NCBI RefSeq assembly: GCF_004349235.1
Contig: NZ_SMKY01000011.1
Coordinates: 1-64,000, forward strand
DNA length: 64,000 nucleotides
Direction of reading: 5' to 3'
From: Actinomadura darangshiensis
GTDB taxonomy: Bacteria; Actinomycetota; Actinomycetes; Streptosporangiales; Streptosporangiaceae
The notes beneath the pieces were generated by a model that was given only the letters and a program-made list of their open reading frames with translations, ran no database searches and was not told the origin of the DNA. The translations under genes were made by a program, and so were the position numbers. How positions within the stretch are numbered: the first letter of the stretch is position 1; every line of letters begins with the position of its first letter. Shown here piece after piece: positions 33,548 to 63,005 of the stretch.

Positions 33548-33598
33548 CGGCAGACCTTTCACGTCGAGGTCGAACGCTTCCCGGAGCGTCCGGGGCCG

Positions 33599-33758: not shown

Positions 33759-34256
33759 ATGCCCGATCTCAGTGAGCAGACCCGCACAATGATGAGGGAA
33801 CGACTCAACCGCTATCTGCGGCTACGCGACGAGCACGGCGACGAGAAGGCGCGCGAGATCCTGCTGGAGGGTTATCCCGAGCGGCAGGCCGAGCGCATGG
33901 GGCCGCGCATCGAGGGCCGTCCGCTGATCGAGGGCTTCCGGGAGGCGCTGGCCGTCTTCGCGCAGATGGGCTTCCAGGAAGAGTCACTGGACATGTCGCG
34001 GGACGGCGTGGACGCCGTGATGCAGGTCTGCCGCACCTGCATGTGCGTGACGGCTGCCGCGGAGCTGGACGTCGAGCCGACCCCCGTGCTGTGCGAGCTG
34101 GACTTCGAGGCCACCCGCCGGGCCTTCCCCGACATGACCGTCGAGGGCCTGCTCCACCAGGCCGAGGGCCGGCACGTCTGCGTGTTCCGCTACGCGCGTC
34201 CCGAATCGGCGGCCAACGGAGCGAAGGCGTCCGAGGCCGACGCCGAGACCGCCTGA
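33759..34256 (+). CDS. Small cysteine-containing protein, V4R/ATC-hydrolase-like (weak)
   Basis: A 165-residue soluble protein divergent from the first hem operon, with a GGAAGGGG site before its ATG. The N-terminal 90 residues are helical. The C-terminal part runs VCRTCMCVTAAAELD, then PVLCELDFEATRRAFP and a closing AEGRHVCVFRYARP. The spacing of Cys residues and the closing A-x-G-x-x-x-C-x-F pattern recall V4R domains and L-2-amino-thiazoline-4-carboxylate hydrolase-like proteins. V4R is named after BchJ of bacteriochlorophyll synthesis, so the position beside hem genes is suggestive, but the match is by eye and weak. It could sense or carry a tetrapyrrole, a metal or a small ligand. Confidence 0.55.
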   Translation: MPDLSEQTRTMMRERLNRYLRLRDEHGDEKAREILLEGYPERQAERMGPRIEGRPLIEGFREALAVFAQMGFQEESLDMSRDGVDAVMQVCRTCMCVTAAAELDVEPTPVLCELDFEATRRAFPDMTVEGLLHQAEGRHVCVFRYARPESAANGAKASEADAETA

Positions 34257-34337: not shown

Positions 34338-35837
34338 TCATTTGCGGAGGCCGCGCAACCCGACGGCGGCGCCGACCGCCGCCGCCACCGACAGCCCCGC
34401 GCCCACGAGGAACGCCGCGTGGTAGCCGCCCAGCTGGGCGGAGAGCGCGTCCTGTCCCGGGAGGTGCCGGGTCCAGGCGGCGGCGACCGCGACGTAGAGC
34501 GCGAGGGCCAGCGCCCCGCCGATCTGCAGGGCGGCGTTGAACACGCCCGCGGCCAGGCCCGAGAACTCGGGCTTCGCCCGGTCCACCGCGGCGATCGTGA
34601 CCGGGATGAAGGTCCAGCCGGCGCCGAACCCGATCAGGGCCAGGCCCGGCACGATGTCGCTCAGATAGGACGCGTGCTCGGGCAGCCGGACGAAGGTCAG
34701 CGACCCCGCCGCCATGATCAGCAGTCCCATGGCGAGCACCCACCGCGGCCCGAGCTTCGGCACCAGCGTCTGGGTCGCCAGCGGGATGGCGATCAGCATG
34801 CCCGCCACCAGGGTGAGGTAGGCGAACCCGGTGCGCAGCGCACTGTATCCCCCGGCCGTCTGCAGATAGATCGTCAGGATGAAGAACGTGCCCGCGAACG
34901 CGGACGGGACGACCAGGGCGAGCGCGTTCGCCACGGCCGTGGTGCGCACCCGGAGGAACGCGGCCGGGATGAGCGGGTTCTCGGCCCGCCGCTCGATCAG
35001 CACGAAGGCCGCCACCAGCACTGCGGCCGCGACCAGCATCGAGACCGTTCGCGCCGAGCCCCAGCCGTTGTGGCCGGCCTGCAGGGCCGCGTAGACGAGC
35101 GCGGTCAGGCCGCCGGTGATGGTCAGCGCACCGGGCAGGTCGAACCGTCCCGACCGTTCGGGCGGGTCGGCCCGGATCATGCGCGGCAGGACGAGCAGGA
35201 CGGCGATGCCGATCGGCACGTTGATGAAGAAGATCCAGCGCCAGGAGAGCAGGTCCGTCAGCGCCCCGCCGAGCAGCAGCCCGGCGGCCCCGCCCATGCC
35301 GGAGATGCCGCCCCAGATGCCGAGCGCCCGGGTGCGCTCCCCGGACTCCGGGAAGAGGATCTGGATCAGCGCCAGCGAGGTGGGGGCGGTGAACGCCGCA
35401 CCGAGGCCCTGCACGGCGCGGAACAGGATCAGCACGGTGCCGTTCGGCGCCAGCCCGTTGATCAGGGACGCGACGGTGAAGAGGGTCAGCCCGGCGAGGA
35501 ACAGCCGGCGCCGGCCGAGCAGGTCGCCGGCGCGTCCGCCGAGCAGCAGGAAGCCGCCGTAGAGCAGCCAGTACCCGTCGGCGACCCAGGCGAGGCTGGA
35601 CAGCGAGAGCCCGAGACCGTCCCGCATGGAGGGCATCGCCACGTTGACCACGGTCTCGTCGATGACCAGCATGAAGTCGACGAAGCACAGGACGGCGAGG
35701 GCCCGCCATCGGCCGATGGCGCCCTGCGCCGTGCCCGGCGGCTCCTCCGCCGGCTCTCCCGGGGGCCGTTCGGGGAGGCCGGTCTTCGCGTGCCGTCGCT
35801 TCCGGGCGGCGCGCGGGCGCATGTCCGAGCCGCTCAT
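34338..35837 (-). CDS. DHA2-type MFS exporter
   Basis: A 499-residue, 14-helix drug:H+ antiporter. Features include DETVVNVAMPSMRDGLGLS (motif D1 of DHA2), GGRAGDLLGRRRLFLAG (motif A) and LGALAFTAPTSLAL-like motif C around GLGAAFTAPTSLALIQ. The first 40 residues are basic and cytosolic. The ATG overlaps the stop of the SRPBCC gene by four bases, so both are produced together. Their operon is divergent from a TetR gene with a palindromic site between them, the classic layout of a repressor-controlled exporter. Substrate unknown. Confidence 0.88.
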   Translation of the reverse strand: MSGSDMRPRAARKRRHAKTGLPERPPGEPAEEPPGTAQGAIGRWRALAVLCFVDFMLVIDETVVNVAMPSMRDGLGLSLSSLAWVADGYWLLYGGFLLLGGRAGDLLGRRRLFLAGLTLFTVASLINGLAPNGTVLILFRAVQGLGAAFTAPTSLALIQILFPESGERTRALGIWGGISGMGGAAGLLLGGALTDLLSWRWIFFINVPIGIAVLLVLPRMIRADPPERSGRFDLPGALTITGGLTALVYAALQAGHNGWGSARTVSMLVAAAVLVAAFVLIERRAENPLIPAAFLRVRTTAVANALALVVPSAFAGTFFILTIYLQTAGGYSALRTGFAYLTLVAGMLIAIPLATQTLVPKLGPRWVLAMGLLIMAAGSLTFVRLPEHASYLSDIVPGLALIGFGAGWTFIPVTIAAVDRAKPEFSGLAAGVFNAALQIGGALALALYVAVAAAWTRHLPGQDALSAQLGGYHAAFLVGAGLSVAAAVGAAVGLRGLRK

Positions 35838-38684: not shown

Positions 38685-38703
38685 CGAGGTTAGCCTCACC
38701 TCA
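38685..38703 (+). promoter_or_regulatory. IdeR/DmdR-like iron box 2 overlapping the efeUO -10 element
   Basis: CGAGGTTAGCCTCACCTCA ends at the first base of the ATG and covers TAGCCT (38691-38696), the likely -10 element 6 bases before the start. Binding would directly block transcription when iron is plentiful. Confidence 0.68.
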
Positions 38704-40739
38704 TGCATTTCAGCTGGGCATTGGCTTTCCCGAATCTGCTGATCGGGCTGCGTGAGGGCCTGGAGGCCGGCCTCATCGTCTCCATCCTCGTGGCCACCGT
38801 GCGGAGGCTCGCACCGGAGCGCTCGCTCACCGGGGTCTGGCTCGGGGTCGCCGCGGCGGCCGCGACCAGCCTGAGCGCGGGCGCCGTCCTGACCTTCGCG
38901 GAGGCGTCGCTGCCGGGCACCGCACAGGAGGGCTTCGCCGGCGGGCTCAGCCTCCTCGCCGTCGCCCTGGTCACCTTCATGGTCTTCTGGATGCGGCGGG
39001 CCGCCCGCTCCATCAGCGGCGAACTGAAGGAGAAGGTCGGCTCCGCGCTCACCATGGGCGGCCTCGCGCTCACGGTCACCGCGTTCGTCGCGGTCGCCCG
39101 CGAGGGCCTGGAGACCGCCCTGTTCATCTGGACCAACACGCAGGCCGCGGGCTCGAACCCTGCCCCGCTGACCGGGGCGGCGATCGGCCTGGCCATCGCC
39201 GTCGCCTTGTGCGCCGGCATGTACAAGCGCGTGCTCAAGCTCAACCTGGGCAAAGTCTTCACCTCCACGGGGGCCGTGCTCATCGTCATCGCGGGCGGGG
39301 TCCTCGCGTACGGCATCCGGGACCTGCAGGAGGCCGGCCTCGTCCCCGGACGCGACTCCTCGGCCTACGACGTCAGCGCGCACATCTCGGCCGGCGCCTG
39401 GTGGATGGAGATCGTCCGCGGATTGACCAACATCACCGTCCAGATGACGTGGGCTCAGGTCATCGCCTACGTGGGCTTCATCGGCGTCGTGATGTCCCTG
39501 TTCCTCCGGCGGAGCCGGCCGCCCGCGGCGCGCGAGGCGAGGCCGGCACCGGAGGCCGCCGGCACCGGTGGCGAGGCACGCGGCCGGAACCGCCGGCCGG
39601 TCATCGCCGCGGCGGCCGTCACGCTGGTCCCCGCGGTGGTCGCCGGAGCCGTGGTGCTGACCGGACGCAAGTCCGGCGGCGCGCAGCGGATCGAACTCTC
39701 GCCGGCCGCGTGCGCCGGCGACTGGACGCCACCCAGCGCAGGCCGTGTCAGGTTCTCCATCTCCAACCCGACCCGCCGGCCGGTGGACATCGAGCTGATC
39801 CAGGAGTCCAGCCGGGCGATCGCCGCCGAGATAGAGATGCTCGCGCCGGGCACCACCAGGGACCTTCCCGTCTCGCTGGCGCCGGGCCGCTACGCCTGGC
39901 GGTGCGCCTTCGACGGCGGCCGCACAACGGTGTCGGCGGCGGCCGCGGTCACCGGCTCGGGCGGGGGCGGCGAGGTCAGGCTTCCGGTCACCGAGGCGGA
40001 CATGGCTCCGGTGCTCGCAGGCTACCGCGGCCACGTCGCCGACGGGCTTGGCGAGCTGGACGAACGGGTGGCCGAGCTGCGCTCCGACCTCGCCGACGGT
40101 GACCTCGGCGCCGCCCGCTCCGACTGGCTCACCGCCCACCAGGCCTACCACCGGCTGGGCGCCGCCTACGGTGCCTTCGGCGACGCCGGGGACGCGATCG
40201 ACGGGCTGGCCTCCGGCCTTCCCGGCGGCGTGCGGGACAAGGGCTTCACCGGCTTCCACAAGATCGAATACGGGCTGTGGCACGGCCGGGACGCCGCCGA
40301 GACCGAGCGGGCCGCCGCCGCGCTCGCGTCCGCCGTGGCGGGCCTCCGCGACGGGGCCGCCGGGCTGGAGCTCGATCCCGCCGACGTCGCGACCCGCGCG
40401 CACGAGATCCTGGAGGACACCCTCCGGTTCGAGCTCACCGGCCAGGACGACTACGGCAGCCATAGCGCGAAGGCCACCGCGACCGCCGACATCGAGGGCG
40501 ACCGCGCCGTGCTCCGCTTCCTCACCCCGCTGATCGAGGCGCGCGCCCCCGGGCTCACCGCCCGCTGCACCGCCGCGCTCGACGACTTCCAGAACGCGCT
40601 CGACACCGTCCTGGACGGGCACCGGCACAAGGCCGTCCAGGAACTGCCGCTCGCCGTCCGGCAGCGTGTGAACGCCAAGGCCGGCCGCGCCGCCGAGACG
40701 CTCGCCCCCATTCCCGACCTGCTGGAGATCCAGAGATGA
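38703..40739 (+). CDS. efeUO: Fused EfeU-EfeO iron transporter
   Basis: One 678-residue protein joins two usually separate subunits. Residues 1-275 form the FTR1/EfeU permease with seven helices and both REGLE iron motifs (17-21 and 133-137). A linker and an eighth helix (about 299-321) lead to an extracytoplasmic EfeO part. That part has a cupredoxin-like segment (about 328-415) and an imelysin/M75 domain (about 430-678) carrying [11 protein letters not shown] with its HxxE metal motif. It should take up iron across the membrane, with EfeO as built-in periplasm-side receptor. The downstream efeB overlaps by four bases, and iron boxes precede the gene. Confidence 0.92.
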
Positions 40740-41941
40740 ACGCCGGAGTCCCGACCCGTCGCACGTTCCTCGCCGGCACCGGCGCGCTCGGCGCGCTGGC
40801 CGCGGCGTCCTGCTCGGCCGCGGGCGCCGCGGAGCCCGGGGCCGCGGCCGCGGTGCCGTTCCACGGCCGGCACCAGGCCGGGATCCTCACCCCGCCGCCG
40901 GACAGCGCCGCCTTCGCGGTCTTCGACATCGTGGCGGAACGCCGTGCGGAGCTGACCGGCCTGTTCCGCACCCTCACCGAGCAGGCCCGCTTCATGACCA
41001 GCGGCGGGACCCCGCCGGACCTCGGACCCGCCGCGCCGCCGTCCGACTCGGGCATCGTCGGCCCGGTGGTCATGCCCGACGCCCTGACGATCACCGTCGG
41101 GCTCGGCGCCTCGTTCTTCGACGACCGGTTCGGCCTCGCCGGCCGCCGGCCGCGGCGGCTGACCCGGATGCCCACGTTCCCCGACGACCACCTCGACCCG
41201 GCGCAGTGCCACGGCGACCTGCTCCTGCAGATCTGCTCCGCGCACCCCGACACCACGGCGCACGCGCTGCGCATCATCGCCAAGCACACGCGCGGCGCCA
41301 TGCAGCTGCGGTACCGCATCGACGGCTTCCACGGCCCGGCGCGACCGTCCGGAACGCCCCGCAACCTGCTCGGGTTCAAGGACGGCATCGCCAACCCGCC
41401 GGTCGCCGAAGCGGCGACCGGGCGGCGGCTGCTGTGGGCGGGTCCCGGCGAGCCCGCCTGGGCGGCGGGCGGGACCTACCACGTGTTCCGCGTCATCCGG
41501 ATGTTCGTCGAGTTCTGGGACCGGGTCTCGCTGGCCGAGCAGGAGGCGATGTTCGGCCGGCGCCGGGACACCGGCGCGCCGCTGGACGGCGCGGCCGAGG
41601 ACGACGAGCCGGACTACGCCAGGGACCCGGACGGGCACGTCATCCCGCTCGACGCGCACATCCGGCTCGCCAACCCGCGGACGCCGCGCACCGACGGCGA
41701 CCGGATCCTGCGCCGGGGCTACAACTACGACCGCGGGATCGACGTCAACGGCGACCTCGACGCCGGGCTGGTCTTCAGCTGTTTCCAGCGGGATCCGGTC
41801 GCGCAGTTCGAGGCGACCCAGCGCCGGCTGGCCGGCGAACCGCTCGTCGACTACATCAGCCCCACCGGCGGCGGGTACTTCTTCGACCTGCCCGGCGTGC
41901 GCGACAAGCACGAATGGTACGCGCGGGCGCTGCTCGCCTGA
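40736..41941 (+). CDS. efeB: EfeB, Tat-secreted DyP-type heme peroxidase
   Basis: A 401-residue dye-decolorizing peroxidase. The N-terminus has a twin-arginine signal ([22 protein letters not shown] at 8-9, and the Cys could be lipidated). The DyP motif GFKDGIANP carries the catalytic Asp, and the heme-ligand region [20 protein letters not shown] follows. In the EfeUOB system this protein oxidises ferrous iron for the permease, and a heme-deferrochelation role has been debated. It needs heme, which links it to the flanking heme genes. The ATGA overlap with efeUO shows one operon. Confidence 0.93.
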
Positions 41942-50664: not shown

Positions 50665-50684
50665 GCCGCCACCCGCCTCAGTCC
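50658..50684. terminator. Compact bidirectional hairpin between the methyltransferase and flavin reductase genes
   Basis: GGACTGAG (50658-50665) pairs perfectly with CTCAGTCC (50677-50684). The arms contain the stop codons of both convergent genes. Confidence 0.6.
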
Positions 50685-51208
50685 ACTCCGGCCGCGCTGT
50701 GCGGCTGGGCGGCGAGGCCGTGGAAGCGGCCCATGTGCCGGACCAGCGGGGAATCGTCCCCGCCCAGCTCCGTCCCGACCACCAGCCCGACCACGTGCAG
50801 GTGGTCGCCGAGCCGCCGCACCTGCCGCCGCCGGCAGGTGAGGCGTGCGATGTCCCCGGCCAGGAAGGGCAGGCCGAGGTCGCCGCGGTGCCACTCGGTC
50901 GGCGTCGCGAACCGTGCCGCACCGCGCTGGGCGAAGCGGTGGGCCAGGTCCTCCTGCCCCGCCGCGAGGATGTTGATCCCGAAGTGGCGGTGCCGCCGCA
51001 GCCCGGCCCAGCTCGCCGAGCCGGTGCGCACGCAGAACGAGACCAGCGGCGGCTCCAGGCTGACCGAGGTGAACGAGGTGGCGGTGAAGCCGACCGGGGC
51101 GTCCGGCGCGCCGCCCGTCACGATCACCACCCCGCTGGCGTGCCGGCGCAGCGCCGACCGGAAGGTGTCGGCCCGGACGCCGGCGAGGTCGCGCTCACCG
51201 GCGCTCAC
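50678..51208 (-). CDS. Flavin reductase-like protein
   Basis: A 176-residue split-barrel flavin-binding protein. FRSALRRHASGVVIVTGGAP, PVGFTATSFTSVSLEPPLVS and HRHFGINILAAGQEDLAHRF are typical of NAD(P)H:flavin reductases that feed reduced FMN/FAD to monooxygenases. The GTG overlaps the hemF2 stop by four bases, so it is the last gene of the second hem operon. Its partner is not obvious; it might supply reduced flavin to a cluster oxygenase or help keep porphyrinogens reduced. The latter is conjecture. Confidence 0.82.
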   Translation of the reverse strand: MSAGERDLAGVRADTFRSALRRHASGVVIVTGGAPDAPVGFTATSFTSVSLEPPLVSFCVRTGSASWAGLRRHRHFGINILAAGQEDLAHRFAQRGAARFATPTEWHRGDLGLPFLAGDIARLTCRRRQVRRLGDHLHVVGLVVGTELGGDDSPLVRHMGRFHGLAAQPHSAAGVD

Positions 51209-52110
51209 CGGTCGCCCGCCCAGTCGCGCGGCTGGAGGAACGACGACAGCCGTTCCTCGGCCGAGCCCGGCTCCGGCACGACCCCGCGCGACCAGCGCAC
51301 GACCGGAGGCAGCGAGGCGAGCACGTTGTCGGCGTCGACGCCGGTATTGAGCCCGAACGTCGTCCCGATGTCGTACACCAGGTTGAACTCGACGTACCGG
51401 CCGCGCCGGGCGAGCTGCCAGTTCCGCTGCGCGTCCCCGTACGGCGTGCCCATCCGGCGCCGGACGATCGGAAGGTACGCCTCGGAGATCGCTGTGAGCG
51501 CCCCGCCCGTGAACGCGGCGAGCGCCGTGCGGTCCGCGCCCGAACCCGTCAGGTGGTCGAAGAAGACGCCGCCGACGCCGCGCATCTCGCCGCGGTGCTT
51601 GACGTAGAAGTACTCGTCGCAGTTCTTCTTCCATTCCTGGTACGCGCCGATCTCGTGTTCGTCGCAGCACCGCTTGATCGCTTTGTGGAAGGACTCCGCG
51701 TCCGTTTCGAAACCGTAGGACGGTGTCATGTCCATCCCGCCGCCCAGCCACCATTCGCCGTCCGCGTCGCTCACCTCGAAATACCGGAAGTTGGCGTGGA
51801 AAGACGGCACATAGGGATTCACCGCGTGCAGGACCATGGAGATGGACGCCGCCGAGTACTCCCGGCCCGCCAGCTCCGGGCCGGGCGCGGCCACCGGGTG
51901 CAGGTCGCGGCTGCGCAGCACCGAGACGTTGACCGCCGCGCGCTCGAACACGCCGCCGTCCTCCAGCGTCCGGGCCTCGCCATGGCCGAGCCCCGGCGAT
52001 CGCCAGGGATGCCGGGCGAACCGGCCGCCCGGGTCCAGGTCCTCGAACTCCGCGACGAGGCGCCGCTGGTGCCCGGTCATGAGCTCGGCGAACCGATCGA
52101 CAGCCGACAC
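51205..52110 (-). CDS. hemF: Oxygen-dependent coproporphyrinogen III oxidase, copy 2
   Basis: The 301-residue protein carries all main HemF blocks: NPYVPSFHANFRYFEVSD, WWLGGGMDMTPSYGFETD, CDEYFYVKHRGEMRGVGG, VFFDHL and RRGRYVEFNLVYDIGTTFGL. Unlike copy 1 it keeps Asp after FF. It would produce protoporphyrinogen IX with O2. The GTG at 52110 has a strong GGAGG site and gives SAVDRFAEL. It lies 16 bases after hemE2 and overlaps the flavin reductase gene. The two HemF copies are clearly diverged in sequence, so this is not a recent duplication. Confidence 0.93.
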   Translation of the reverse strand: MSAVDRFAELMTGHQRRLVAEFEDLDPGGRFARHPWRSPGLGHGEARTLEDGGVFERAAVNVSVLRSRDLHPVAAPGPELAGREYSAASISMVLHAVNPYVPSFHANFRYFEVSDADGEWWLGGGMDMTPSYGFETDAESFHKAIKRCCDEHEIGAYQEWKKNCDEYFYVKHRGEMRGVGGVFFDHLTGSGADRTALAAFTGGALTAISEAYLPIVRRRMGTPYGDAQRNWQLARRGRYVEFNLVYDIGTTFGLNTGVDADNVLASLPPVVRWSRGVVPEPGSAEERLSSFLQPRDWAGDR

Positions 52111-52126: not shown

Positions 52127-53185
52127 TCAGTTGGGTTGGGTGAAGCCGGCGACGGTGTCGACGACGGCGGCGACGGCGTCGACCGGGGTCCGCGGCAGGA
52201 TGCTGTGCCCGAGGTTGAAGATGTGCGGGCCGCCCGCGCCGTCCCGCAGCACGCGCAGCGTCTTGGCACGGGCCTGGCCGGCCCCGCCGAGCAGCGCCGC
52301 CGGATCGAGGTTGCCCTGCAGGGTCTTGCCGCCGAGCAGGGCCCGGCTGCGGCCGAGCGGCATCCGCCAGTCCACGCTCACCACCTCGGCGGGCAGCGTC
52401 GCGATCGACGGGTAGAGATGCGCCGCGCAGGTCGCCAGGTAGACGCGCGGCACCTCCAGCTCGCCGAGCGCGGCCAGCAGCCGGTTCAGGTAGGGCAGCC
52501 CGAACTCGGTGTACGCCTGCTGTTCGAGGATGCCCGCCCAGCTGTCGTAGATCTGGATCACGTCGGCGCCCGCGGCCACCTGCTCGCACACCTGGCGCAG
52601 CGCCACCTCGGTGAGCAGTTCCAGCAGCCGGTGCGCGAGGCCGGGCTCGGCGTGCAGCCAGCCGCGGAAGTCGGCCTGCTCGCCGCGCGCGTACCCCTGG
52701 ACGAGGTAGGTGGCGAGGGTGAGCGGCCCGCCGCAGAACCCGATGATGGGCAGCGCCGTCCGGTCGCGGACCATCCGGAGCGCGGCGACGGCGGCCGGGG
52801 TGATCTCCTCCGGTTCCGGCAGCCGCAGCCGGCCGATCGCCGCCGCGGTGCGCACCGGGTCCTGGATGATCGGCCCGGGGGTGAACTCGACGGGCACGCC
52901 CATCGCGGTGACCGGGGACATGATGTCGGCGAACAGCAGCGCCGCGTCCAGCGGGAACCGGGCGAGCGGCTGCAGGGTCGCCGTCGCGGTCAGCTCCGGA
53001 TCCTCCAGCATGGCCTTCAGGCCGTGCCGCTCGCGCAGCTCGCGGTGCTCGGGCAGGTACTGGCCGGCCTGGCGCATCAGCCACACCGGCGGCCGCGACG
53101 TGCGGATCCCGCGGACCGCGCGGAGGAGCAGTGCGGCGTCCGGCGCCACCGGCGCGGTCCCGGGCCGGGTCAGTTCGCTGGTCAT
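52127..53185 (-). CDS. hemE: Uroporphyrinogen decarboxylase, copy 2 (altered active-site motif)
   Basis: A 352-residue HemE. Most of the family is conserved: LFADIMSPVTAMGVPVEFTP (catalytic Asp), YDSWAG, and HIFNLGHSILP. The N-terminal substrate motif reads RQAGQYLPEHR, so Gln42 replaces the second Arg of the usual RQAGRY pair that binds substrate carboxylates. It may still work, or may prefer a different isomer or partly decarboxylated substrate. The ATG overlaps the hemH stop by four bases. It differs from copy 1 throughout. Confidence 0.92.
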   Translation of the reverse strand: MTSELTRPGTAPVAPDAALLLRAVRGIRTSRPPVWLMRQAGQYLPEHRELRERHGLKAMLEDPELTATATLQPLARFPLDAALLFADIMSPVTAMGVPVEFTPGPIIQDPVRTAAAIGRLRLPEPEEITPAAVAALRMVRDRTALPIIGFCGGPLTLATYLVQGYARGEQADFRGWLHAEPGLAHRLLELLTEVALRQVCEQVAAGADVIQIYDSWAGILEQQAYTEFGLPYLNRLLAALGELEVPRVYLATCAAHLYPSIATLPAEVVSVDWRMPLGRSRALLGGKTLQGNLDPAALLGGAGQARAKTLRVLRDGAGGPHIFNLGHSILPRTPVDAVAAVVDTVAGFTQPN

Positions 53186-54282
53186 CGCAGCGTCGCCGTC
53201 GGCTCGGTGGTGTCGTAGCCGCCGGCCACCGAGTGGACGACGGTGCGGCACAGCGCGTTGTCGCAGCCCAGGCACTGGACGGGGTACTGGGCGCTCGCCG
53301 CTTCGCCCGACTTCAGGTGCCCGGCGACGATTTCGGCGAGGGCGGTGACGAAGGCGGGCCGCACGTTCGGCGCCGGCGCCCGCCGGATCTCGCGGATACC
53401 AGCCGCTTCGGCCCGCCGGAAGAGGTCGACGTCGATCTCGTACAGGGTCTCGATGTGGTCGGACGTGAACGCGACGCAGACGACCAGGACCTTGGTGACG
53501 CCCTGTCCGGCGAGCTTCTCGACCGCCGCGATCGTGCTCGGGCCGAGCCACGGCACCGGGCCGACCTTCGACTGGAACGACACCCGGTACGCGTTCGGCA
53601 CGTCGAGCTCGTCCATGATCGCGTCCACCGACGCGTGGATCTCGTGCGGGTACGGGTCGCCCTTGTTGATCACCTTCATCGGCATGGAGTGCGCGCTGAA
53701 CAGCAGCAGGACCCGGTCCCGATCGCCGGCGTCGAAGTCGGCCAGGCCGGCCCGGACCGTCTCGGCCATCGAGGCGACGTAGGCCGGGTGCCGGTACCAG
53801 CGGTCGAGGACGCTCCAGGTGAAGGCGGAGTGCAGCCCGGTCCGCTCGACCCCGCGCCACAGCTCGTTCAGGCTGGATCCGGAGGTCGTGCAGGAGAACT
53901 GCGGAAACTGCGGCATCGCGACGGCGCGGCGGACGCCGTCCGCCTTCATCCGTCGCAGGGTCGCGTCGGTGGACGGGTCCGAATAGCGCAAGGCGAGATA
54001 GTGCCGGTGCGGTGCGGTCGCAGGCGACAGGTCGTCCAGTGCCCGCACCATGGCCTCGCCCTGCCGCTCCAGCCAGCCCTTCAGCCGGGGCCCGCCGACC
54101 TCCGCGTGCTGCCGGCGCGCGCCGGGCGCGGACATGCGCGCCATCAGCGGGGACAGCCGCTTCTGCATCGGGAGCTGCATCAGCTCCCGGTCCATCAGCA
54201 GGGCGGAGAAGTAGCGCCGCACGTCGTCGAGATCGTTCGGTTCTCCCATGCTCAGCATGACCACCGCGGTGGGATCCGCCAT
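53182..54282 (-). CDS. hemH: Ferrochelatase of the mitochondrial [2Fe-2S] type
   Basis: This 366-residue enzyme inserts Fe2+ into protoporphyrin. The catalytic His198 is in FSAHSMPMKVINKGDPYPHE and Glu279 in FTSDHIETLYEID. The run QSKVGPVPWLGPST is very close to the animal and fungal enzyme. All four cluster cysteines of human ferrochelatase have counterparts: C131 (FPQFSCTTSGSS) and C337, C340, C345 (QCLGCDNALCR). Typical actinobacterial coproporphyrin ferrochelatases do not look like this. It is the first gene of the second hem operon, with GGGAGGGG before the ATG and an iron box further upstream. Confidence 0.95.
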   Translation of the reverse strand: MADPTAVVMLSMGEPNDLDDVRRYFSALLMDRELMQLPMQKRLSPLMARMSAPGARRQHAEVGGPRLKGWLERQGEAMVRALDDLSPATAPHRHYLALRYSDPSTDATLRRMKADGVRRAVAMPQFPQFSCTTSGSSLNELWRGVERTGLHSAFTWSVLDRWYRHPAYVASMAETVRAGLADFDAGDRDRVLLLFSAHSMPMKVINKGDPYPHEIHASVDAIMDELDVPNAYRVSFQSKVGPVPWLGPSTIAAVEKLAGQGVTKVLVVCVAFTSDHIETLYEIDVDLFRRAEAAGIREIRRAPAPNVRPAFVTALAEIVAGHLKSGEAASAQYPVQCLGCDNALCRTVVHSVAGGYDTTEPTATLR

Positions 54283-54439: not shown

Positions 54440-54531
54440 TTCGCCCGGACAGCCCGACATTCGTACTCCGGCCGCAATTTCGTGCGGGTGGATCGCGGGG
54501 GATACGGCGGACCGACGAGAGGCCGGTGGCC

Positions 54532-56022
54532 ATGGGTACCGAAGTCATCGACGTGCTGGTGGTGGGGGGCGGGCCGGCCGGGCTCACGCTGGCCCGCGCC
54601 CTCACCGCCGGCCACCCCGGGCTGTCGGTCACGGTGCTGGAGGGTGCCGGCCGGGTCGGCGGCAAGGCCCGTACCGAGATCCGGGACGGCTACACCTTCG
54701 AGCACGGCCCGAGCGACTACACCCGCAACCCGGAGATGGTCCGGCTCATCGAGGACTCCGGGCTGGGCGACCGGGTCGAGGTGGCGCCGCTGCGCTCGCT
54801 CACCCGGATGGCGATCGTCCGCGACGGCCGGCTCCTGCCCACCCCGCGCTCGCCGCTCGGCGCGCTGACGACGCCGCTGCTCTCCCCGGCCGCGAAGGCC
54901 CGGATGCTGCTGGAGCCGCTGTTCGCCCGGCGTCCGGGACCCGAGGGCGACGAGAGCGTGCACGACATGGCCGCCCGGCACTTCGGCGCCGAGGTCGCCG
55001 ACCGGGTCGTCCGGAACATGCTGCTCGGCACCGCGGCCTGCGACGCGCGCACCACGAGCGTCCGCGCACTGGCGCCGGCGCTGTGGGACTTCGAACGGGA
55101 CGCCGGGCGCGCCGGGCTGCTGGCCCACGCCGTGCGGTCGGCGCTGCGGCGGCGTGGCGGGGACCGGATGCGCGCCCCGGACGTGATGCACCTCGTCCCC
55201 GGCGGTGTGGCGGCGCTCTGGGAGCGGCTCGCCACGGACCTGGACGGACGGGTCGTCACCGGCGCGCCCGCCGTGTCCCTGGAGGTCGACGAGGACCGGC
55301 GGTACGCCGTGACGGTGACGGACGGCACCCGGTACGTGGCGCGGACGGTCGTCCTGGCGGTCCCGGCGTACACGGCGGCCGCCCTGGTCGCCGGGATGGC
55401 GCCGCGCGCCGCCGAGATCCTGCGCGGGATCACCTACAGCGGGCTGCGGGTCTTCGGGCTCGGCTACCGGGACGACGAGCTCGCGCGCTTCCCGGACGGC
55501 ATCGGCTTCCTCGTCCCCCGCGGCGAGGGCGCCCGGATGTTCGCGGTGGCCGCCGTCTCCCGGATCGTCGCCGCGCACGCGCCGGACGGCCACGTCCTGC
55601 TCCGCGTCTTCATGGGGGGCAGCGAGGACCCGGGCGTCTTCGACCTCACCCGCGACGAGGCGGTGGAGGAGATCCGCCGGGACCTGCGCAGGTTCACCGG
55701 CATGACCGCCGAGCCGGGCTTCGTCGCCGAGGCGTCCGACCGGCGCGCGATCCCGCGGTACGAGGTGGGGCACGCGGCGCGGCTGGAGCAGGCCGAGGCG
55801 GCACTGCTGGAGTACCCGGGGCTGTTCCTCGCGGGCAACTCCTACCGCTCGCTCGGGCTGACCGCCACGGTGCTGCGCGCCGCGCGGCTCGCGCCGGTCG
55901 TGGCGGAACGGGCCCGCCGGGCGGCGCGGAGCGAACGCCGTCCGGGGCCGCGCGGCCCGGCGCGGTCGCGGCGCGGCCCTTCGGGAACACAGCACGGTCC
56001 ATCGGAAACGAGGTCGGAATGA
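54532..56022 (+). CDS. hemY: FAD-dependent protoporphyrinogen oxidase (HemY/PPO type)
   Basis: The 496-residue flavoprotein has the FAD motif VLVVGGGPAGLTLARAL (GGGPAG at 12-17), then GRVGGKARTEIRDGYTFEHG and the C-terminal PPO signature GLFLAGNSYRSLGL. It would oxidise protoporphyrinogen IX (or coproporphyrinogen) to the porphyrin, the step between HemF and HemH in this pathway. The C-terminal 35 residues are Arg/Pro/Ser-rich and probably disordered. The ATG at 54532 is chosen for spacing from GAGAGG; a GTG at 54526 is possible. It is divergent from hemH-E-F and coupled to the next gene by ATGA. Confidence 0.85.
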   Translation: MGTEVIDVLVVGGGPAGLTLARALTAGHPGLSVTVLEGAGRVGGKARTEIRDGYTFEHGPSDYTRNPEMVRLIEDSGLGDRVEVAPLRSLTRMAIVRDGRLLPTPRSPLGALTTPLLSPAAKARMLLEPLFARRPGPEGDESVHDMAARHFGAEVADRVVRNMLLGTAACDARTTSVRALAPALWDFERDAGRAGLLAHAVRSALRRRGGDRMRAPDVMHLVPGGVAALWERLATDLDGRVVTGAPAVSLEVDEDRRYAVTVTDGTRYVARTVVLAVPAYTAAALVAGMAPRAAEILRGITYSGLRVFGLGYRDDELARFPDGIGFLVPRGEGARMFAVAAVSRIVAAHAPDGHVLLRVFMGGSEDPGVFDLTRDEAVEEIRRDLRRFTGMTAEPGFVAEASDRRAIPRYEVGHAARLEQAEAALLEYPGLFLAGNSYRSLGLTATVLRAARLAPVVAERARRAARSERRPGPRGPARSRRGPSGTQHGPSETRSE

Positions 56023-56943: not shown

Positions 56944-58536
56944 CTATCCGACCTTCTCGGAGGCCGGCGGGGGCACCTGGTCCGGCAGCTCCGGCGGGAC
57001 GCCCGTCAGCGCGCTCTCGTGCAGCGCTTTGTTGCTCACCGAGACCAGCGCGATCACGGCGGCCAGGAAGGCGAGCACCGCGCACAGGGCCATGGTCTGG
57101 TGGAAGGCGTCGGTGAAGGCCGCGCGCCCGTCCGCGACCAGGTCCGCCGCCGTCCCGGGCGGCGCCGACCCCGCCACCGCGTCGATGTTCCCCGCGCTGA
57201 TCGCGGAACCGGCCTCCGTCGCCCCCGGCCCCAGCCGGGCGCCGGCCGCGGAGTCGCGGAAGGCGGCGATCACCCGGTTCTCGAAGAACGCCCCGGCGAC
57301 CGCCAGGCCGAGCGCGATGCCCACCTGCTGGAACGTCTCGTTGATTCCGGACGCCACTCCCGCGCGCTCCGGTTCGAAGACGCCGATGGACAGCGCCGCG
57401 CGGGTCGGCATGAACAGGCCGATGCCCACGCCCGTCACGACGAGCGCCGGGATCAGCGACGTCCAGCCCGATCCCGCGTCGCTGAGGGACGTCAGCAGCG
57501 CGCCCGCGCCGACCGCGGCGACCGCGACCGCGAGCAGGGCCCGGAACGGGACCTTCCGCGGCAGGGCGCCGGCCAGCGCGCCGCAGCAGAACATCGCGAT
57601 GGTCATGGGCAGGAACCGGAGCCCCGCCTGCCATGCCGAGCCGTTCAGGACGCTCTGCAGGTAGGTCGTCGCGATGAAGATGAAGGGCATCCCGCACGCG
57701 TTGACCAGGAGGGTCGCGAGGGACAGCCCGAGGAACGTCCGGTCGCCGAGCATCCTGAGGTCGAACATGGCGCGGCCGCCCCGCGCCCGCGCCATCCCGA
57801 GAAAGACGGCCAGGCCTACCGCCGACAGCGCGTAGAGCGCGGTGTTGCCGGCCGAGAACCAGCCGTCGGCGTTCCCGCGGATGATCGCCAGCACGATCGC
57901 AGCGAGCGAGACGGTGAAGGCGACCATCCCGGCGACGTCGGGCGGGGCGGGGTTCGCCAGGCGCGACTCGCGCAGCGTGCGCAGGGCCAGCGGGATGAGC
58001 ACGAGTCCGATCGGCACGTTCATGAGGAAGATCCATCGCCAGCCCGACCCGCTGGTCAGCGCGCCGCCGATCAGCGGTCCGCCGGCGGCGGCGACGCCCG
58101 TCGCGGCGCCGAACGCCGCGAACGCCGTCGCGCGCTCCTTGCCGTGGAACTCGTGTCCGAGCAGCGCCGGCCCGACGGCGAACATGACGGCCGCGCCGAC
58201 GCCCTGCGCGGCGCGGGCGGCGTCCAGCGCCACGATGTCCTGCGCCAGGCCGCAGGCGATGGACGCCGCCCAGAAGCCGGCGAGTCCGGTGATGAAGGTG
58301 CGCTTGCGGCCGCCGGCGTCGGCGACGGAACCCGCGATGACCAGAAACGCGGCGAGGGTCAGCGCGTAGGCGTCGAACACCCACTGCAGCTCGCTGAGGT
58401 CGGCGTGCAGCGACGTCCTGATGCTCGGCAGCGCGACGGCCACGATGCTCAGGTCGAGGATGAGCATGAAGGCGGCGACGGAGACGATCACGAGCGTCCA
58501 CCAGCGGGCGGCGGACGGGACGGCGGGCGCGCTCAT
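56944..58536 (-). CDS. DHA2-type MFS exporter
   Basis: A 530-residue, 14-helix transporter. LDLSIVAVALPSIRTSLHAD is the DHA2 N-terminal motif, GSVADAGGRKRTFITG is motif A, and GVGAAVMFAVGPALLGHEF covers motif C. The ATG overlaps the stop of the first amine oxidase gene by four bases, so it ends the minus-strand run that begins with the ligase. It is the likely exporter of that run's product. A terminator hairpin follows its stop. Confidence 0.88.
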   Translation of the reverse strand: MSAPAVPSAARWWTLVIVSVAAFMLILDLSIVAVALPSIRTSLHADLSELQWVFDAYALTLAAFLVIAGSVADAGGRKRTFITGLAGFWAASIACGLAQDIVALDAARAAQGVGAAVMFAVGPALLGHEFHGKERATAFAAFGAATGVAAAGGPLIGGALTSGSGWRWIFLMNVPIGLVLIPLALRTLRESRLANPAPPDVAGMVAFTVSLAAIVLAIIRGNADGWFSAGNTALYALSAVGLAVFLGMARARGGRAMFDLRMLGDRTFLGLSLATLLVNACGMPFIFIATTYLQSVLNGSAWQAGLRFLPMTIAMFCCGALAGALPRKVPFRALLAVAVAAVGAGALLTSLSDAGSGWTSLIPALVVTGVGIGLFMPTRAALSIGVFEPERAGVASGINETFQQVGIALGLAVAGAFFENRVIAAFRDSAAGARLGPGATEAGSAISAGNIDAVAGSAPPGTAADLVADGRAAFTDAFHQTMALCAVLAFLAAVIALVSVSNKALHESALTGVPPELPDQVPPPASEKVG

Positions 58537-59957
58537 CCGTTCCGCTCCGCTCCGGCGGCGGTCAGGGCGGCGTCGGCCTCCGCCGCGGCACGATGACCGG
58601 AGGCAACGGCGCCGTCCATGTATCCCTGCCAGTAGGTGGCCGTCTCCGTCCCCGCCCAGTGCACGCGTCCCACCGGCTCGGCCAGCGCCGGGCCGAACCC
58701 TGTCAGCGCCCCGGGCGGCGCCAGCGAACCCGGGCATCCCCAGACGAACGGTTCCTTGTGCCAGCGGCGCAGGATCACCTTCCGCGGGTTCGCGGCCTCC
58801 TCGCCGAAGTACGCGCGCAGGTTGTCGACGACCAGGTCGCGCACCGCCTTGTCGTCGGCATCGTCGAGCCTGCGGGCCGCGTCGCCCTTGACGAAGCACA
58901 CCAGCACCCCGGGGGCACCGGACTCTGGGGTGTTGTCCCAGACGTTCTGTGCCGGTCCGGTGTCGCTGAGGACGTATCCGGTCAGCCCGGAGTCGCGCCA
59001 GAAAGGCCGGTCGTAGACGACGTTGACCTTGATCTGCGCGCCATTGAGCAGGACCCTGGCCAGGTCCGTCCGCCGGGCCGGGAGCGGCGGGTCGAAGACG
59101 ATGTTCGCGGCGGCGGCGGGAGAGGCGGCGACGATGGCGCGGCGCGCCTCGACCGCCGACACCGCCGTCTCCACCCGTACGCCCTCCCCGGTCCGCGCGA
59201 TCCGCGTCACGGGTGCGGACAGGGTCAGGACGTCGTCGAGTTCGGCCGCGAGCCGCTGCGGGATCCGCTGGGACCCGCCCTGGACGCGGTACAGCGACGC
59301 ACCGTCCTTGGTGACGACCACGCGCAGCAACGCGCCGGGCGTTTCGGCGTTGCCGGCCGCCGCGACGAACTTGAGCATGTGCAGCAGCGACAGCTGGTGC
59401 GCCTCGCAGGCCTGGGTGCCCCGGACCACGTAGTCGACGATCATGCGAGCGTCCGGTGTCGCGACGATGGTGCCGATCCAGTCGGCGAAACTCGTCCGGT
59501 CCCATTCGGTGGCTCGGGCGGCGCACCAGGGGGCGCCGGGGTCGACGTGCCGGGCCAGTTTCTGCAGTTCCTCGATGACGGTCGTGATCTCGTCGAGGGC
59601 GTCCTCGGATATCGGGGGGATGGGGCCGGCCGCGGAGTCGTACCGGGTGACCTTTCCGTGCCTGTAGTAGGTGTGGCGGCCCAGCATGTGAGTTCTGTAG
59701 GTGCTCAGCCCGAGGTCGCCGAGCAGGGCGAGAATGTTGTCCTGGGTGGGGCCGACCCATTGCCCGCCCATCTCGATCGTCTCGTCGCCGCTGATCGGTG
59801 CGCCGAGCACCCGGCCGCCGGCCCGGCCGGACGCCTCTAATATGCGGACGGAACGGCCGCCGCGCCTTAGATCACGCGCCGCCGTGAGGCCGGAGAGACC
59901 CGCGCCGACGATCGCGACGTCGACCGTGCCGCGGGGGTCGAACGGAGAATTCGTCAT
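58533..59957 (-). CDS. Flavin monoamine oxidase-like enzyme 1
   Basis: The 474-residue protein has the FAD motif VAIVGAGLSGLTAARDL (GAGLSG at 18-23), GRAGGRV, and the C-terminal GRVHWAGTETATYWQGYMDG seen in MAO and putrescine oxidases. WGCPGSLAPPG holds a Cys aligned by eye with the residue that links FAD covalently in animal MAO; linkage here is unproven. It should oxidise an amine or amino acid to an imine. Translationally coupled to the MFS gene. The alpha/beta hydrolase gene ends 17 bases upstream. Confidence 0.86.
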   Translation of the reverse strand: MTNSPFDPRGTVDVAIVGAGLSGLTAARDLRRGGRSVRILEASGRAGGRVLGAPISGDETIEMGGQWVGPTQDNILALLGDLGLSTYRTHMLGRHTYYRHGKVTRYDSAAGPIPPISEDALDEITTVIEELQKLARHVDPGAPWCAARATEWDRTSFADWIGTIVATPDARMIVDYVVRGTQACEAHQLSLLHMLKFVAAAGNAETPGALLRVVVTKDGASLYRVQGGSQRIPQRLAAELDDVLTLSAPVTRIARTGEGVRVETAVSAVEARRAIVAASPAAAANIVFDPPLPARRTDLARVLLNGAQIKVNVVYDRPFWRDSGLTGYVLSDTGPAQNVWDNTPESGAPGVLVCFVKGDAARRLDDADDKAVRDLVVDNLRAYFGEEAANPRKVILRRWHKEPFVWGCPGSLAPPGALTGFGPALAEPVGRVHWAGTETATYWQGYMDGAVASGHRAAAEADAALTAAGAERNG

Positions 59958-59974
59958 GGTCACTGTCCTGTCTT

Positions 59975-60832
59975 CTAGGGGCGGTCGGGAGGGACCTCCT
60001 GCGAGGTGAACGCGCGGATGGCGCGCGCGAGGACGAGCGGCTGGTCGAGCGGCACGAGCGTGCGGCTGTCCGGCACCTCGGTGAGCCGCCCCTGCGGCAG
60101 CAGCTCGGCGAGGCGCCGCCCGTGCTCCGGCGGCATGACCCGGTCCCGCTCGGCCCAGACGACGAGGGCGGGCCGGTCGAAGGCGCGCAGCCGCTCGGCG
60201 GCGTCGAGCAGCACCTTGCGCTCCGCGGAGATGCCGCGCAGCACGCGCACGGTGTCGCGCCGGACGTCCGGCTGCGTCAGCACCGGCTTCAGCCAGCGGG
60301 CCACTGTCGCGTCGCCGCGCCTGGTCAGCCAGCCGAAGGAGATCGGCAGCCTGCGCATCGGCTTCAGCCGCATCTGCTGCATGAAGACACCGAACACGGC
60401 GGGCGGCAGCTTTCCGGTCAGCACGATCGTCTTGCCGGTCAGGCCGGGCGGGAAGTTGCCGAACGCGTCGCAGGAGACGAGGACGATGCTCCCGATGCGG
60501 GCGGCCTTCTCGGCGGCGAGGAGCTGGACGACCGCTCCGCCCGTGTCGTTGCCGATCAGGACGACGTCGTGCAGGTCGAGGGCTTCGAGGAACTCCCCGA
60601 CCAGGCGCGCGATCCCGTGCGGTGTGAGGTCGGTGCCGTCGCGCATCGGGCGGGTGTGGGCGCCCAGCGGCAGCGTCGGCGCTACGCACCGGTGGTCGCC
60701 GCGCAGCTCGGCGACGACGTCCGCCCACAGCGTGGCGTCCATCAGCAGCCCATGCAGGAGAACGACGACCGGCCCGTCGCCGCCGGTGTCCTCGAAATCG
60801 ATCGTGCCGGCCGGAAGTTCGATGCTCTCCAC
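59975..60832 (-). CDS. Alpha/beta hydrolase with Asp at the nucleophile elbow
   Basis: A 285-residue alpha/beta-hydrolase: VVLLHGLLMDATLW (oxyanion HG motif), then LIGNDTGGAVVQ, where the elbow has Asp instead of Ser, and VVWAERDRVMPPEHGRRL with the acid position. The usual C-terminal catalytic His is not where expected; the segment reads DSRTLVPLDQP. It therefore resembles a subfamily with an Asp nucleophile like epoxide hydrolases or haloalkane dehalogenases, or a non-hydrolytic variant. GTG start; it begins 3 bases after the CrtA-like stop codon. Substrate unknown. Confidence 0.82.
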   Translation of the reverse strand: MESIELPAGTIDFEDTGGDGPVVVLLHGLLMDATLWADVVAELRGDHRCVAPTLPLGAHTRPMRDGTDLTPHGIARLVGEFLEALDLHDVVLIGNDTGGAVVQLLAAEKAARIGSIVLVSCDAFGNFPPGLTGKTIVLTGKLPPAVFGVFMQQMRLKPMRRLPISFGWLTRRGDATVARWLKPVLTQPDVRRDTVRVLRGISAERKVLLDAAERLRAFDRPALVVWAERDRVMPPEHGRRLAELLPQGRLTEVPDSRTLVPLDQPLVLARAIRAFTSQEVPPDRP

Positions 60833-60835
60833 GTG

Positions 60836-61573
60836 TCACACTCCGTTGGACGTGTCCATTGGCGAAAGGGGCCCGGTTGTCGAATCCGAACCGTTGACAC
60901 AGTCCAGCATGTCAAGGGGATTGCTCGCCCCCCACCGCCCTTCCGCTGCATATGGCACATATCTGGAGAACGACATTTCGTGGTTCAGCCGGTGTTCCCG
61001 GTCCACTTTCATCGCGCGTTCGTGACCGCCGGGGTACTTCCCCGTGACGTACTGCCGCATGTCGCGAACATTGCGCCAGAGCGAGAACGTGCCGATGACG
61101 AGCGGCGGGCGGAGCAGAGTGAGCCCGTCCACGAAACCGGGGTGACCGGCCGCCTCGCGCTCGGCGGCGCCGGCGGCCCTGACGAAGCGGAGGAACCGGT
61201 TGGCGCGGACCCGGCCCACCGTCACCGCCACGACCGGCAGGTCGCCGGTGGGCCGCTCCCGCCTCGGCAGGTCGGGCAGGCCCGGAAGCTCGCCGATGCT
61301 GCGGGCCGGGAGCATCCGCACGCGCCAGCCGTCCTCGTACGGCCGTGCCCGCCGGTGGTACAGGAACCGGTCGAGGTACTCGTCGTCGTCCCATGCGGCG
61401 ATCAGGGCGACGCCCGTGATGGCGAGCGACGGCAGCATGCCCTTGCGCAGCTCGGCCGTGAGGTAGGTGCGCGCGTAGCGCAAGCCGTCGACGGCGCCGG
61501 GGTCGGGCGGACGGCGGAACGCCGTGAGCGCCTTGCCCATCCCTGTCTGGACGATGTGTGCGGAGAGGAGCAC
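60836..61573 (-). CDS. CrtA-like (spheroidene monooxygenase-type) protein
   Basis: A 245-residue protein. The central VVAVTVGRVRANRFLRFVRA, the strand LVIGTFSLWRNVRDMRQY and the closing EMSFSRYVPYAAEGRW match the spheroidene monooxygenase CrtA and related two-domain ferredoxin-like proteins. CrtA binds heme and hydroxylates carotenoids, but no carotenoid genes are present here. A GGAAGGTGA site precedes the GTG. It sits between an amine oxidase and a hydrolase gene in one run. Heme dependence would tie it to the nearby hem genes; this is inferred from the family only. Confidence 0.7.
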   Translation of the reverse strand: MLLSAHIVQTGMGKALTAFRRPPDPGAVDGLRYARTYLTAELRKGMLPSLAITGVALIAAWDDDEYLDRFLYHRRARPYEDGWRVRMLPARSIGELPGLPDLPRRERPTGDLPVVAVTVGRVRANRFLRFVRAAGAAEREAAGHPGFVDGLTLLRPPLVIGTFSLWRNVRDMRQYVTGKYPGGHERAMKVDREHRLNHEMSFSRYVPYAAEGRWGASNPLDMLDCVNGSDSTTGPLSPMDTSNGV

Positions 61574-61577
61574 GAGG

Positions 61578-63005
61578 TCACCTTCCTTGCCGTTCTGCGG
61601 GCCCCAGGCCGAGGTCGGCCGGGGCTGCGCCTTCGTCGCAGGCCAGGACCTCGGCGGCGGCCCGCCGTCCCGAGTGGATCGCCCCGCTCATGGACCCGAA
61701 CTCGACCGGCACCGTCTCGGCCCCCGCCCAGTGGATCCGGCCGACCGGCCGCTTGAGCGCCGGGCCGAACTCGGTGTAGAGACCCGGTGGCGCGTACGCG
61801 TGGTAGCAGCCCCGGGTGAACGGCTCCGCCACCCAGTTCTGCTCGATGACGTCGAACGGCTCGCCCGCGCGCCGCCCGAACAGGCGCACGAGCTCGGCCA
61901 GCACGGCGGCACGGCGGTCCGCGCCGCTCAGCCGCAGCATCCGGCGGGCGGCCGGGCCGGTCACGAACGCGGTGAGGACGCCCGGCGTCCCGCCCGGCGG
62001 GCACCCGTCCAGCACCGCCCGCACGGGGCCGGTGTGGCTGATCGCCATCCCGGTCAGGCCCTCGGCGCGCCAGAACGGCTCGTCGTAGAGGGTGAGGAAC
62101 TTGATCGCCGAGCCGAGCGTCAGGCGCTGGGTGAGCTGGTCGCGGTGACCCGGCAGCGCCGGGTCGTACTCGATGCGTCCCGCCAGCGGGACCGGCACGG
62201 CGACGACGACCCGCCGTCCCACGGCCTCGAAGCCTGGGCCGCTCGCCCGGACATGGCCGTCCGCCTGGACGATGCGCCGCACGACCGCACCGGTGTAGGT
62301 CTGGTCGGCCACGGTTTCGGCGAGCCGCAGGGCAAGGCCCTGGGCGCCGCCGACGAAGCGGTTCTCCAGCGTGCCGCCGGTGACCGTGGTGGTCGCCCGG
62401 AATCCGCCGGTGCCGTTCGAGTAGTTCAGGACGTGCAGGAGGGAGACCTCCGCGGGCGACGCCGCCATCCCGGCCTCGATCACGAGCCGCATCAGCGCGC
62501 GTCCGCCCGGCGTGCGGACGTTGCGCCGCGTCCAGGACCACATCGTCTCGTAATCCCACCGGCGCGCGTGGGGCGCCTCCCAGGGCGCCTCCTGCGGCAC
62601 CTCCCGGCGCATCCTTTCGAGCCGCAGCGCCGCCTGCCCGAAGTCGGCGAGCGCGACCGGGCTTGCTTTGGGGATCGCGCCCCGCCACCGCCTGACCCCG
62701 TCCGCGTCGCCGATCAGCTTGAGGCCGGTGTCGTGGACCTTGTGCGATCCGATGCCCACCGACCGGGCCACCTGGGCGCTCACCGAGTCGTGCTGCCCGT
62801 GGAACTCGCAGCCCAGCTCGACCACCTGACCGTCGCCGACGGGCCGGCTGAGCGCCCTGCCGCCGAGCCGCGAACGGGCCTCCAGCAGTGCCACCGTCCG
62901 GCCCGCCTCGGCCAGCCGCCGCGCCGCCGTGATCCCGGCGAAGCCGGCCCCGACCACCACCACGTCGGCCTCGATCGGGCCGGCGTGCTCCTCGATGTCG
63001 TGCAT
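61578..63005 (-). CDS. Flavin monoamine oxidase-like enzyme 2
   Basis: A 475-residue flavoenzyme with VVVVGAGFAGITAARRL (GAGFAG at 19-24), SRLGGRALSRPVGDGQVVEL, and GRIHWAGAETVPVEFGSMSG near the C-terminus. RGCYHAYAPPG again has the Cys that anchors FAD in animal MAO. It is diverged from enzyme 1, so the pair may act on different amines or in successive steps. A GGGAGGGG site precedes the ATG. It lies 9 bases after the ligase stop and 4 bases before the CrtA-like gene. Confidence 0.86.
   Translation of the reverse strand: MHDIEEHAGPIEADVVVVGAGFAGITAARRLAEAGRTVALLEARSRLGGRALSRPVGDGQVVELGCEFHGQHDSVSAQVARSVGIGSHKVHDTGLKLIGDADGVRRWRGAIPKASPVALADFGQAALRLERMRREVPQEAPWEAPHARRWDYETMWSWTRRNVRTPGGRALMRLVIEAGMAASPAEVSLLHVLNYSNGTGGFRATTTVTGGTLENRFVGGAQGLALRLAETVADQTYTGAVVRRIVQADGHVRASGPGFEAVGRRVVVAVPVPLAGRIEYDPALPGHRDQLTQRLTLGSAIKFLTLYDEPFWRAEGLTGMAISHTGPVRAVLDGCPPGGTPGVLTAFVTGPAARRMLRLSGADRRAAVLAELVRLFGRRAGEPFDVIEQNWVAEPFTRGCYHAYAPPGLYTEFGPALKRPVGRIHWAGAETVPVEFGSMSGAIHSGRRAAAEVLACDEGAAPADLGLGPAERQGR

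Follow-up and report, generated by a model that had tools for sequence, protein, structure and literature searches.

In human ferrochelatase, propionate 6 of the porphyrin is bound by S130 and Y123 and propionate 7 by R115. According to the available excerpts of the same source, these three residues are among the few that are identical across all known ferrochelatases, and the enzyme requires propionates 6 and 7 (PMC9133952). For Listeria CpfC, six propionate-contact residues are described, including Arg29, Arg45, Tyr46 and Ser53 (PMC9794026, in excerpt). Cluster motifs are reported to be rare in bacterial ferrochelatases, with the C-terminal motif present in 6 of 24 actinobacterial sequences (PMC8529089, in excerpt). 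The tolyporphin cluster of cyanobacteria, as described in the parts of the literature available to us, contains hemA, hemL, hemB, hemC, hemE and two hemF genes without gltX and hemD (PMC10459692; PMC8401325). Its TolI protein, which binds Fe-S, takes off the vinyl groups that the two HemFs produce in tolyporphin synthesis (PMC10459692; PMC10548856), and tolI is annotated in the same family as PF14196 (PMC10459692). The available part of the tolyporphin review contains 0 occurrences of ferrochelatase, and the open-access literature searched yielded no report of a TolI-type cluster in actinobacteria. Here we describe a 64,000-nt stretch of the Actinomadura darangshiensis genome (GCF_004349235.1, NZ_SMKY01000011.1, positions 1-64,000, forward strand; hereafter the window) that carries a ferrochelatase gene, two hem operons and a TolI-like gene.

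Organisation of the hem genes

Gene calling and Pfam scans were performed on all 57 called window genes. Operon A (33562 down to 27064) has the order hemE-hemF-hemA-hemC-hemB-hemL, its genes overlapping by 4 bp. Operon B has the order hemH-hemE-hemF-flavin reductase and runs from 54282 down to 50678. The features are as follows.

27064..28365, minus: hemL, glutamate-1-semialdehyde aminomutase (TIGR00713 578.9 bits, cut-off 527.3)
28362..29354, minus: hemB, ALA dehydratase (PF00490 460 bits)
29351..30286, minus: hemC, porphobilinogen deaminase (PF01379, PF03900)
30283..31560, minus: hemA, glutamyl-tRNA reductase (PF05201, PF01488, PF00745)
31557..32459, minus: hemF copy A (PF01218 385.2 bits)
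32456..33562, minus: hemE copy A (PF01208 368.9 bits)
33759..34256, plus: TolI-like protein, divergent from operon A (PF14196 relative, 26.4 bits against a cut-off of 28.1)
34338..35837, minus: MFS transporter (PF07690; homologue in two sister clusters, 32-34% identity)
38703..41941, plus: EfeU-EfeO fusion ORF, then DyP-type peroxidase, iron uptake type (between operons A and B; cluster membership uncertain)
50678..51208, minus: flavin reductase (PF01613; 4-bp overlap with hemF)
51205..52110, minus: hemF copy B, oxygen-dependent coproporphyrinogen oxidase (PF01218 339.4 bits)
52127..53185, minus: hemE copy B, uroporphyrinogen decarboxylase (PF01208 332.4 bits; 4-bp overlap with hemH)
53182..54282, minus: hemH, eukaryote-type ferrochelatase of 366 aa (four Cys of the cluster type; replacements at the propionate-binding residues)
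54526..56022, plus: PPOX-type (protoporphyrinogen oxidase) FAD enzyme (TIGR00562 196.7 bits, cut-off 97.85)
56944..58536, minus: MFS transporter, possible exporter (PF07690; 33% identity to one in two sister clusters)
58533..63005, minus: two FAD amine-oxidase-family enzymes, alpha/beta hydrolase and CrtA-like protein (possible tailoring; membership uncertain)

The original prediction had placed a ferrochelatase at 53182-54282. Translation of the plus strand over this interval gives a different frame, and the intact ferrochelatase ORF lies on the minus strand. Its product is HemH by both TIGR00109 (287.9 bits, cut-off 124.6, full length) and PF00762 (307.5 bits, above the curated cut-off). That hemF belongs to the same operon, as had also been stated, was confirmed; that account had not covered operon A, the TolI-like gene or the normal ferrochelatase that the genome also encodes. 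The PPOX-type gene is divergent from hemH at a distance of 243 bp. The reading frames of operon B are intact, its starts overlap and its codon usage is native-like (r 0.946). About 20 kb separate hemH from the TolI-like gene, an interval that holds unrelated genes and an IS701 remnant. The Pfam tables revealed neither hemD (PF02602) nor any cytochrome P450 family gene among the 57 called window genes.

Two ferrochelatases are encoded in the genome, HemH of the window and a CpfC on contig C13. The latter is part of an ordinary coproporphyrin route encoded elsewhere in the genome, together with a third HemE and a ChdC on contig C75. A weak PPOX relative (28.7%) lies between HemE and ChdC on this contig.

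Several neighbouring genes were also recorded. An arginine deiminase gene (25846-27057, plus) adjoins the end of operon A, and a full-length EF-Tu gene (23108-24289, minus; TIGR00485 598 bits, cut-off 522.4) lies ~2.8 kb beyond the hemL end. The CrtA-like (spheroidene monooxygenase) protein, encoded at 60836-61573 on the minus strand between the two FAD amine-oxidase-family genes, matched NF045923 at E 4e-9 with 36 bits against a cut-off of 300. Past the window end, contig C22 carries AMP-ligase, FAD monooxygenase, aldehyde dehydrogenase and PLP-enzyme genes (L126:3016-9129), perhaps a separate biosynthetic cluster.

Cysteines, phylogeny and distribution of HemH

HemH has cysteines at positions 131, 269, 337, 340 and 345. 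Alignment placed C131 on human C196 and C337, C340 and C345 on human C403, C406 and C411, the [2Fe-2S] ligands, in agreement with all four correspondences originally proposed. The tail pattern C..C....C recurred in one of 108 other ferrochelatases compared, that of a Gemmatimonadaceae MAG (L003). Among 11 ferrochelatases of the same class (L002, L101-L110), two Cys-motif patterns matched L104 alone and with a different spacing, which bears out the earlier statement that the cysteine pattern of actinobacterial CpfC differs. Against solved chains, HemH scored 336 bits with the human enzyme, 264 with the yeast enzyme and at most 111 with CpfC-type chains. The predicted structure of HemH had a pLDDT of 87.5; the Cys tail was mostly below 50 (residues 330-334, 338-340 and 342-366) and its model is uninformative. 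Judged from its sequence, HemH is a eukaryote-type ferrochelatase that probably bears a [2Fe-2S] cluster.

Phylogenetic trees were built with two eukaryotes only, human and yeast, and with the 55 loci rows left by a 68%-identity redundancy filter; L001 and L083, which represent the window itself, were dropped from trees and counts. In the 58-row tree, the C13 CpfC and seven other class members formed a clade with 100/100 support, and HemH fell into a group with human, yeast and L003 that had 100/99. When the HemHs of two related genomes, G726 and G722, were added (60 rows), the window HemH grouped with them at 96/93, and support for all six rows as one clade was 100/99. L003 was joined to human and yeast at 97/41; the bootstrap of this tree had not stabilised, and a clade of window, human and yeast sequences was not rejected (p-AU 0.261). 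HemH lay outside the actinobacterial CpfC clade in both trees, and it is therefore taken to be eukaryote-type and transferred. Branch order within the eukaryote-like clade is weak, and these sequences neither show nor exclude a eukaryotic donor. The eukaryote-type clade gains bacterial members, which bears on the origin of the mitochondrial enzyme.

The HemH gene was found in 1 of 65 genomes of the genus, in 1 of 297 genomes of the order sample and, among 394 class-sample genomes, in its own genome alone. Ten others of 396 phylum genomes matched HemH at E 1e-45 or better (best 222 bits), none of them marked as the same class, and ten other class genomes had exactly one ferrochelatase each. These rarity counts are lower bounds, because the 297-genome order sample evidently missed G722 and G726 and the class search scored at most nine (TolI-like) or five (HemH) candidates per genome. 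The sparse distribution fits transfer and, together with the position beside human and yeast outside the CpfC clade, supports the horizontal acquisition claimed in the original prediction. Plasmid relatives of HemH had 24.7-31.1% identity among the best 40 of 157 matches; plasmid sequences gave no match to the TolI-like protein. Contamination was ruled out: the contig carries serS, a bacterial proteasome activator gene and pheA, its codon usage agrees with that of contigs C75 and C13, and related hem clusters occur in the genus.

Substrate-binding residues of HemH, HemE and HemF

The catalytic residues of HemH are retained, with H198, W245, F272, H276 and E278 corresponding to human H263, W310, F337, H341 and E343. 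The propionate contacts are replaced. S51, H59 and P65/R66 stand in place of human R115, Y123 and S130, the motif GGGSP reads GGPR, and the position of human P131 is a gap. The closeness to animal active sites noted earlier therefore applies to the catalytic half and not to the propionate stretch. Among the other 112 rows of the 113-row alignment, Y123 is present in 112, S130 and P131 in 111 each and R115 in 107, the human row being an R115L crystal variant that is counted as L (2qd3 has R). A frame error in the propionate loop was ruled out, as the alternative frames contain no GGGSP.

HemH departs at 11 of the 43 columns conserved at 90%, compared with 1-7 in the seven other rows checked. 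Ten of the 14 such columns up to human residue 135 are affected, against 1 of the 29 beyond it (Fisher 5e-6); one of the 11 departures, at residue 73, is common to human, L003 and G726. The probability that R115, Y123 and S130 would all fall among the 11 departing columns by chance is 0.013, and the localisation of the departures is therefore a stronger argument than the triad. Protoporphyrin IX, the substrate originally proposed, is doubtful, given the replacement of all three residues that would hold its propionates. The lost grip residues suggest a shift in the likely substrate, leading to an unusual iron porphyrin and not to ordinary heme. Since ferrochelatase needs propionates 6 and 7, loss of these contacts could also mean a poor enzyme. 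A natural and catalytically intact-looking exception at R115, Y123 and S130, found in a TolI-type cluster, offers a direct test of what the contacts do and of whether ferrochelatases can specialise for natural products.

Departures were also seen in the other operon B enzymes. HemE-B has MRQAGQY in place of MRQAGRY; RQAGRY was present in 5 of 5 HemEs in a comparison made without a canonical HemE row, and we take R41 of human UROD to be linked with this motif. The two window HemFs are 50% identical to each other and depart at 10 (HemF-A) and 13 (HemF-B) of 92 columns that are invariant in nine others. Four departing positions are common to both, including the Arg of the DRGT motif (N and I), which is kept in 9 of 9 other aligned HemFs. 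This motif is presumably linked to harderoporphyria. Both window HemFs still match the canonical family PF01218. Altered HemFs thus accompany an altered HemH in the window genome and canonical HemFs accompany a canonical pocket in G726 and G722, a pairing that is suggestive at the sequence level over three cases only.

TolI-like genes, sister clusters and a candidate pathway

The window protein was compared with TolI through its near-cut-off PF14196 score and the published family annotation. PF14196 gave a TolI-like match above the cut-off in 2 of 10 genomes searched; in G726 one TolI-like copy scored 38-39 bits and the other had no match. Nine TolI-like relatives have four invariant cysteines, compatible with an Fe-S protein. 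A profile built from these nine matched 5 of 65 genus genomes, all five with hem clusters. TolI-like genes were present in 5 of 7 HemF-positive genus genomes and 0 of 58 others (Fisher 2.5e-6, with genomes treated as independent despite kinship), and in the 394-genome class sample the profile found the window's own genome alone. HemF (PF01218) occurred in 10 of 345 order genomes, and in seven of these it is accompanied by TolI-like genes and hem clusters (G000, G064, G033, G057, G063, G726 and G722). In G277, G041 and G029, the stretches read contained hemF without other hem homologues of the window.

The predicted structure of the TolI-like protein had a pLDDT of 87.3. A Foldseek search returned nothing at E 0.001 or better, the best hit being at 0.024, and a PDB sequence search with the protein gave no match. 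VIA-align ranked BcsD (Z 9.5), Bet3 of TRAPP (9.1), the MopR/PoxR sensor domains (7.5-8.0) and H-NOX (6.8) in a range extending to about 6. These modest matches to the model suggest, but do not prove, a V4R/H-NOX-like fold, V4R and H-NOX domains being linked at superfamily level.

G726 and G722, from another genus of the same family, have two TolI-like genes each and the gene order hemB-hemH-tolI-like with a 4-bp overlap at both joints. Their HemHs keep R115, Y123 and S130 and are without the cluster cysteines (Cys131 and Cys tail). A single hemF, with the DRGT motif kept, was present in the stretches read. No hemH was seen in the stretches read of four of the six sister clusters (G064, G033, G057 and G063, the last with only 6 kb on one side), and metallation is therefore not universal in such clusters.

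Two further observations concern these regions. A fusion of ATPase, binding protein and FecCD-type permease (L144:1940-5813) adjoins the hemA end of the G726 cluster and hints at uptake of an iron compound. In the window, an IS701-type transposase-like ORF (37051-38034, minus) is N-terminally short, its match to NF033540 starting at position 52. In G064, G033, G057 and G063 the TolI-like gene has a full-length homologue of this ORF beside it (374-400 aa, 37-42% identity), with an 8-bp overlap in G033, and the ORF is possibly a domesticated protein of such clusters.

We lean, with little better than even confidence, towards a TolI-type cluster for a specialised metabolite in which HemH inserts metal into a porphyrin with altered side chains, and not (only) into protoporphyrin IX. 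Gene set, gene order, co-occurrence, the intact catalytic residues and the replaced propionate contacts support this assignment. In the candidate pathway, a second and dedicated tetrapyrrole route with duplicate hem genes beside the HemE, ChdC and CpfC kept for ordinary heme, operon A (hemA, L, B, C, E and F) would make a porphyrinogen, which hemE, hemF and the flavin reductase of operon B would finish together with the divergent PPOX. By analogy with tolyporphin synthesis, the TolI-like protein may then strip the vinyl groups left by HemF, and HemH would insert iron into the side-chain-altered porphyrin. What we infer in this pathway is the devinylation, that the 6/7-propionates are lost or altered, that the metal is iron, and that the product is exported or connected with iron. 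A tentative extension, which we consider doubtful, is that the pathway ends in an iron porphyrin lacking both ring C/D propionates, the iron-bearing equivalent of tolyporphin P or of the vinyl compound that precedes it. Here the two altered HemFs would make vinyls from propionates, the TolI-like protein would remove them, and the grip-less HemH would insert iron. If so, HemH would be the first ferrochelatase known to act on a propionate-free porphyrin.

HemF, PPOX and HemH together constitute the classical pathway, and HemH sits in the eukaryote-type clade with its catalytic residues and lip segment kept, as expected if an ordinary protoporphyrin ferrochelatase had been transferred with HemE, HemF and PPOX to make extra heme b. 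We regard this as unlikely: R115, Y123 and S130 are replaced, a coproporphyrin route that looks complete is already present in the genome, and the classical genes are spread across two operons, with hemE and hemF duplicated and a TolI-like gene associated. The same replacements, with RQAGQY in HemE-B against RQAGRY in the five compared, HemF-B off at 13 of 92 columns and HemH off at 11 of 43, might instead reflect relaxed selection on operon B as a decaying duplicate whose enzymes lost their substrate contacts. Decay would be expected to spread departures, yet those of HemH are confined to the porphyrin-binding part (10/14 versus 1/29); the operon retains intact frames whose starts overlap, its codon usage is native-like (r 0.946), and the lost motif does not reappear in other frames. 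Decay is thus quite improbable. The EfeU-EfeO fusion and DyP peroxidase between the operons, and the FecCD-type uptake system that follows the G726 cluster, would suit a cluster supplying heme or an iron porphyrin with unchanged side chains, either to acquire iron or to serve a heme enzyme that belongs to a neighbouring cluster. This would leave the TolI-like genes and the lost propionate contacts unexplained, and we consider it very unlikely.

HemH shares with human ferrochelatase 44% identity over 344 residues, the four cluster cysteines, the catalytic His, Glu, Trp and Phe residues and the clade; it differs at R115, Y123, S130 and P131. The L003 enzyme has the same CxxCxxxxC tail and is 47% identical to HemH and 51% identical to the human enzyme. 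In contrast to HemH, it keeps all propionate contacts, and inspection by eye of the ORFs listed for its 9.7-kb contig showed no other hem genes. The HemHs of G726 and G722 are ~53% identical to HemH, form one clade with it (96/93) and are linked to TolI-like genes, but differ in cysteines, propionate contacts and hemF number as described above. The CpfC on C13 has the ferrochelatase fold and reaction type in common with HemH, with 29% identity over 228 residues and a separate clade (100/100). As far as tolyporphin BGC-1 is described in the available sources, the window shares with it hemA, L, B, C and E, two hemF genes, the lack of hemD, a putative tolI-family gene and an FAD enzyme, whereas the P450s TolG and TolH have no counterpart among the 57 window genes and sugar genes are not linked in the window. 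If the preferred reading is correct, TolI-type porphyrin trimming would extend from cyanobacteria to actinobacteria, with metal insertion added.
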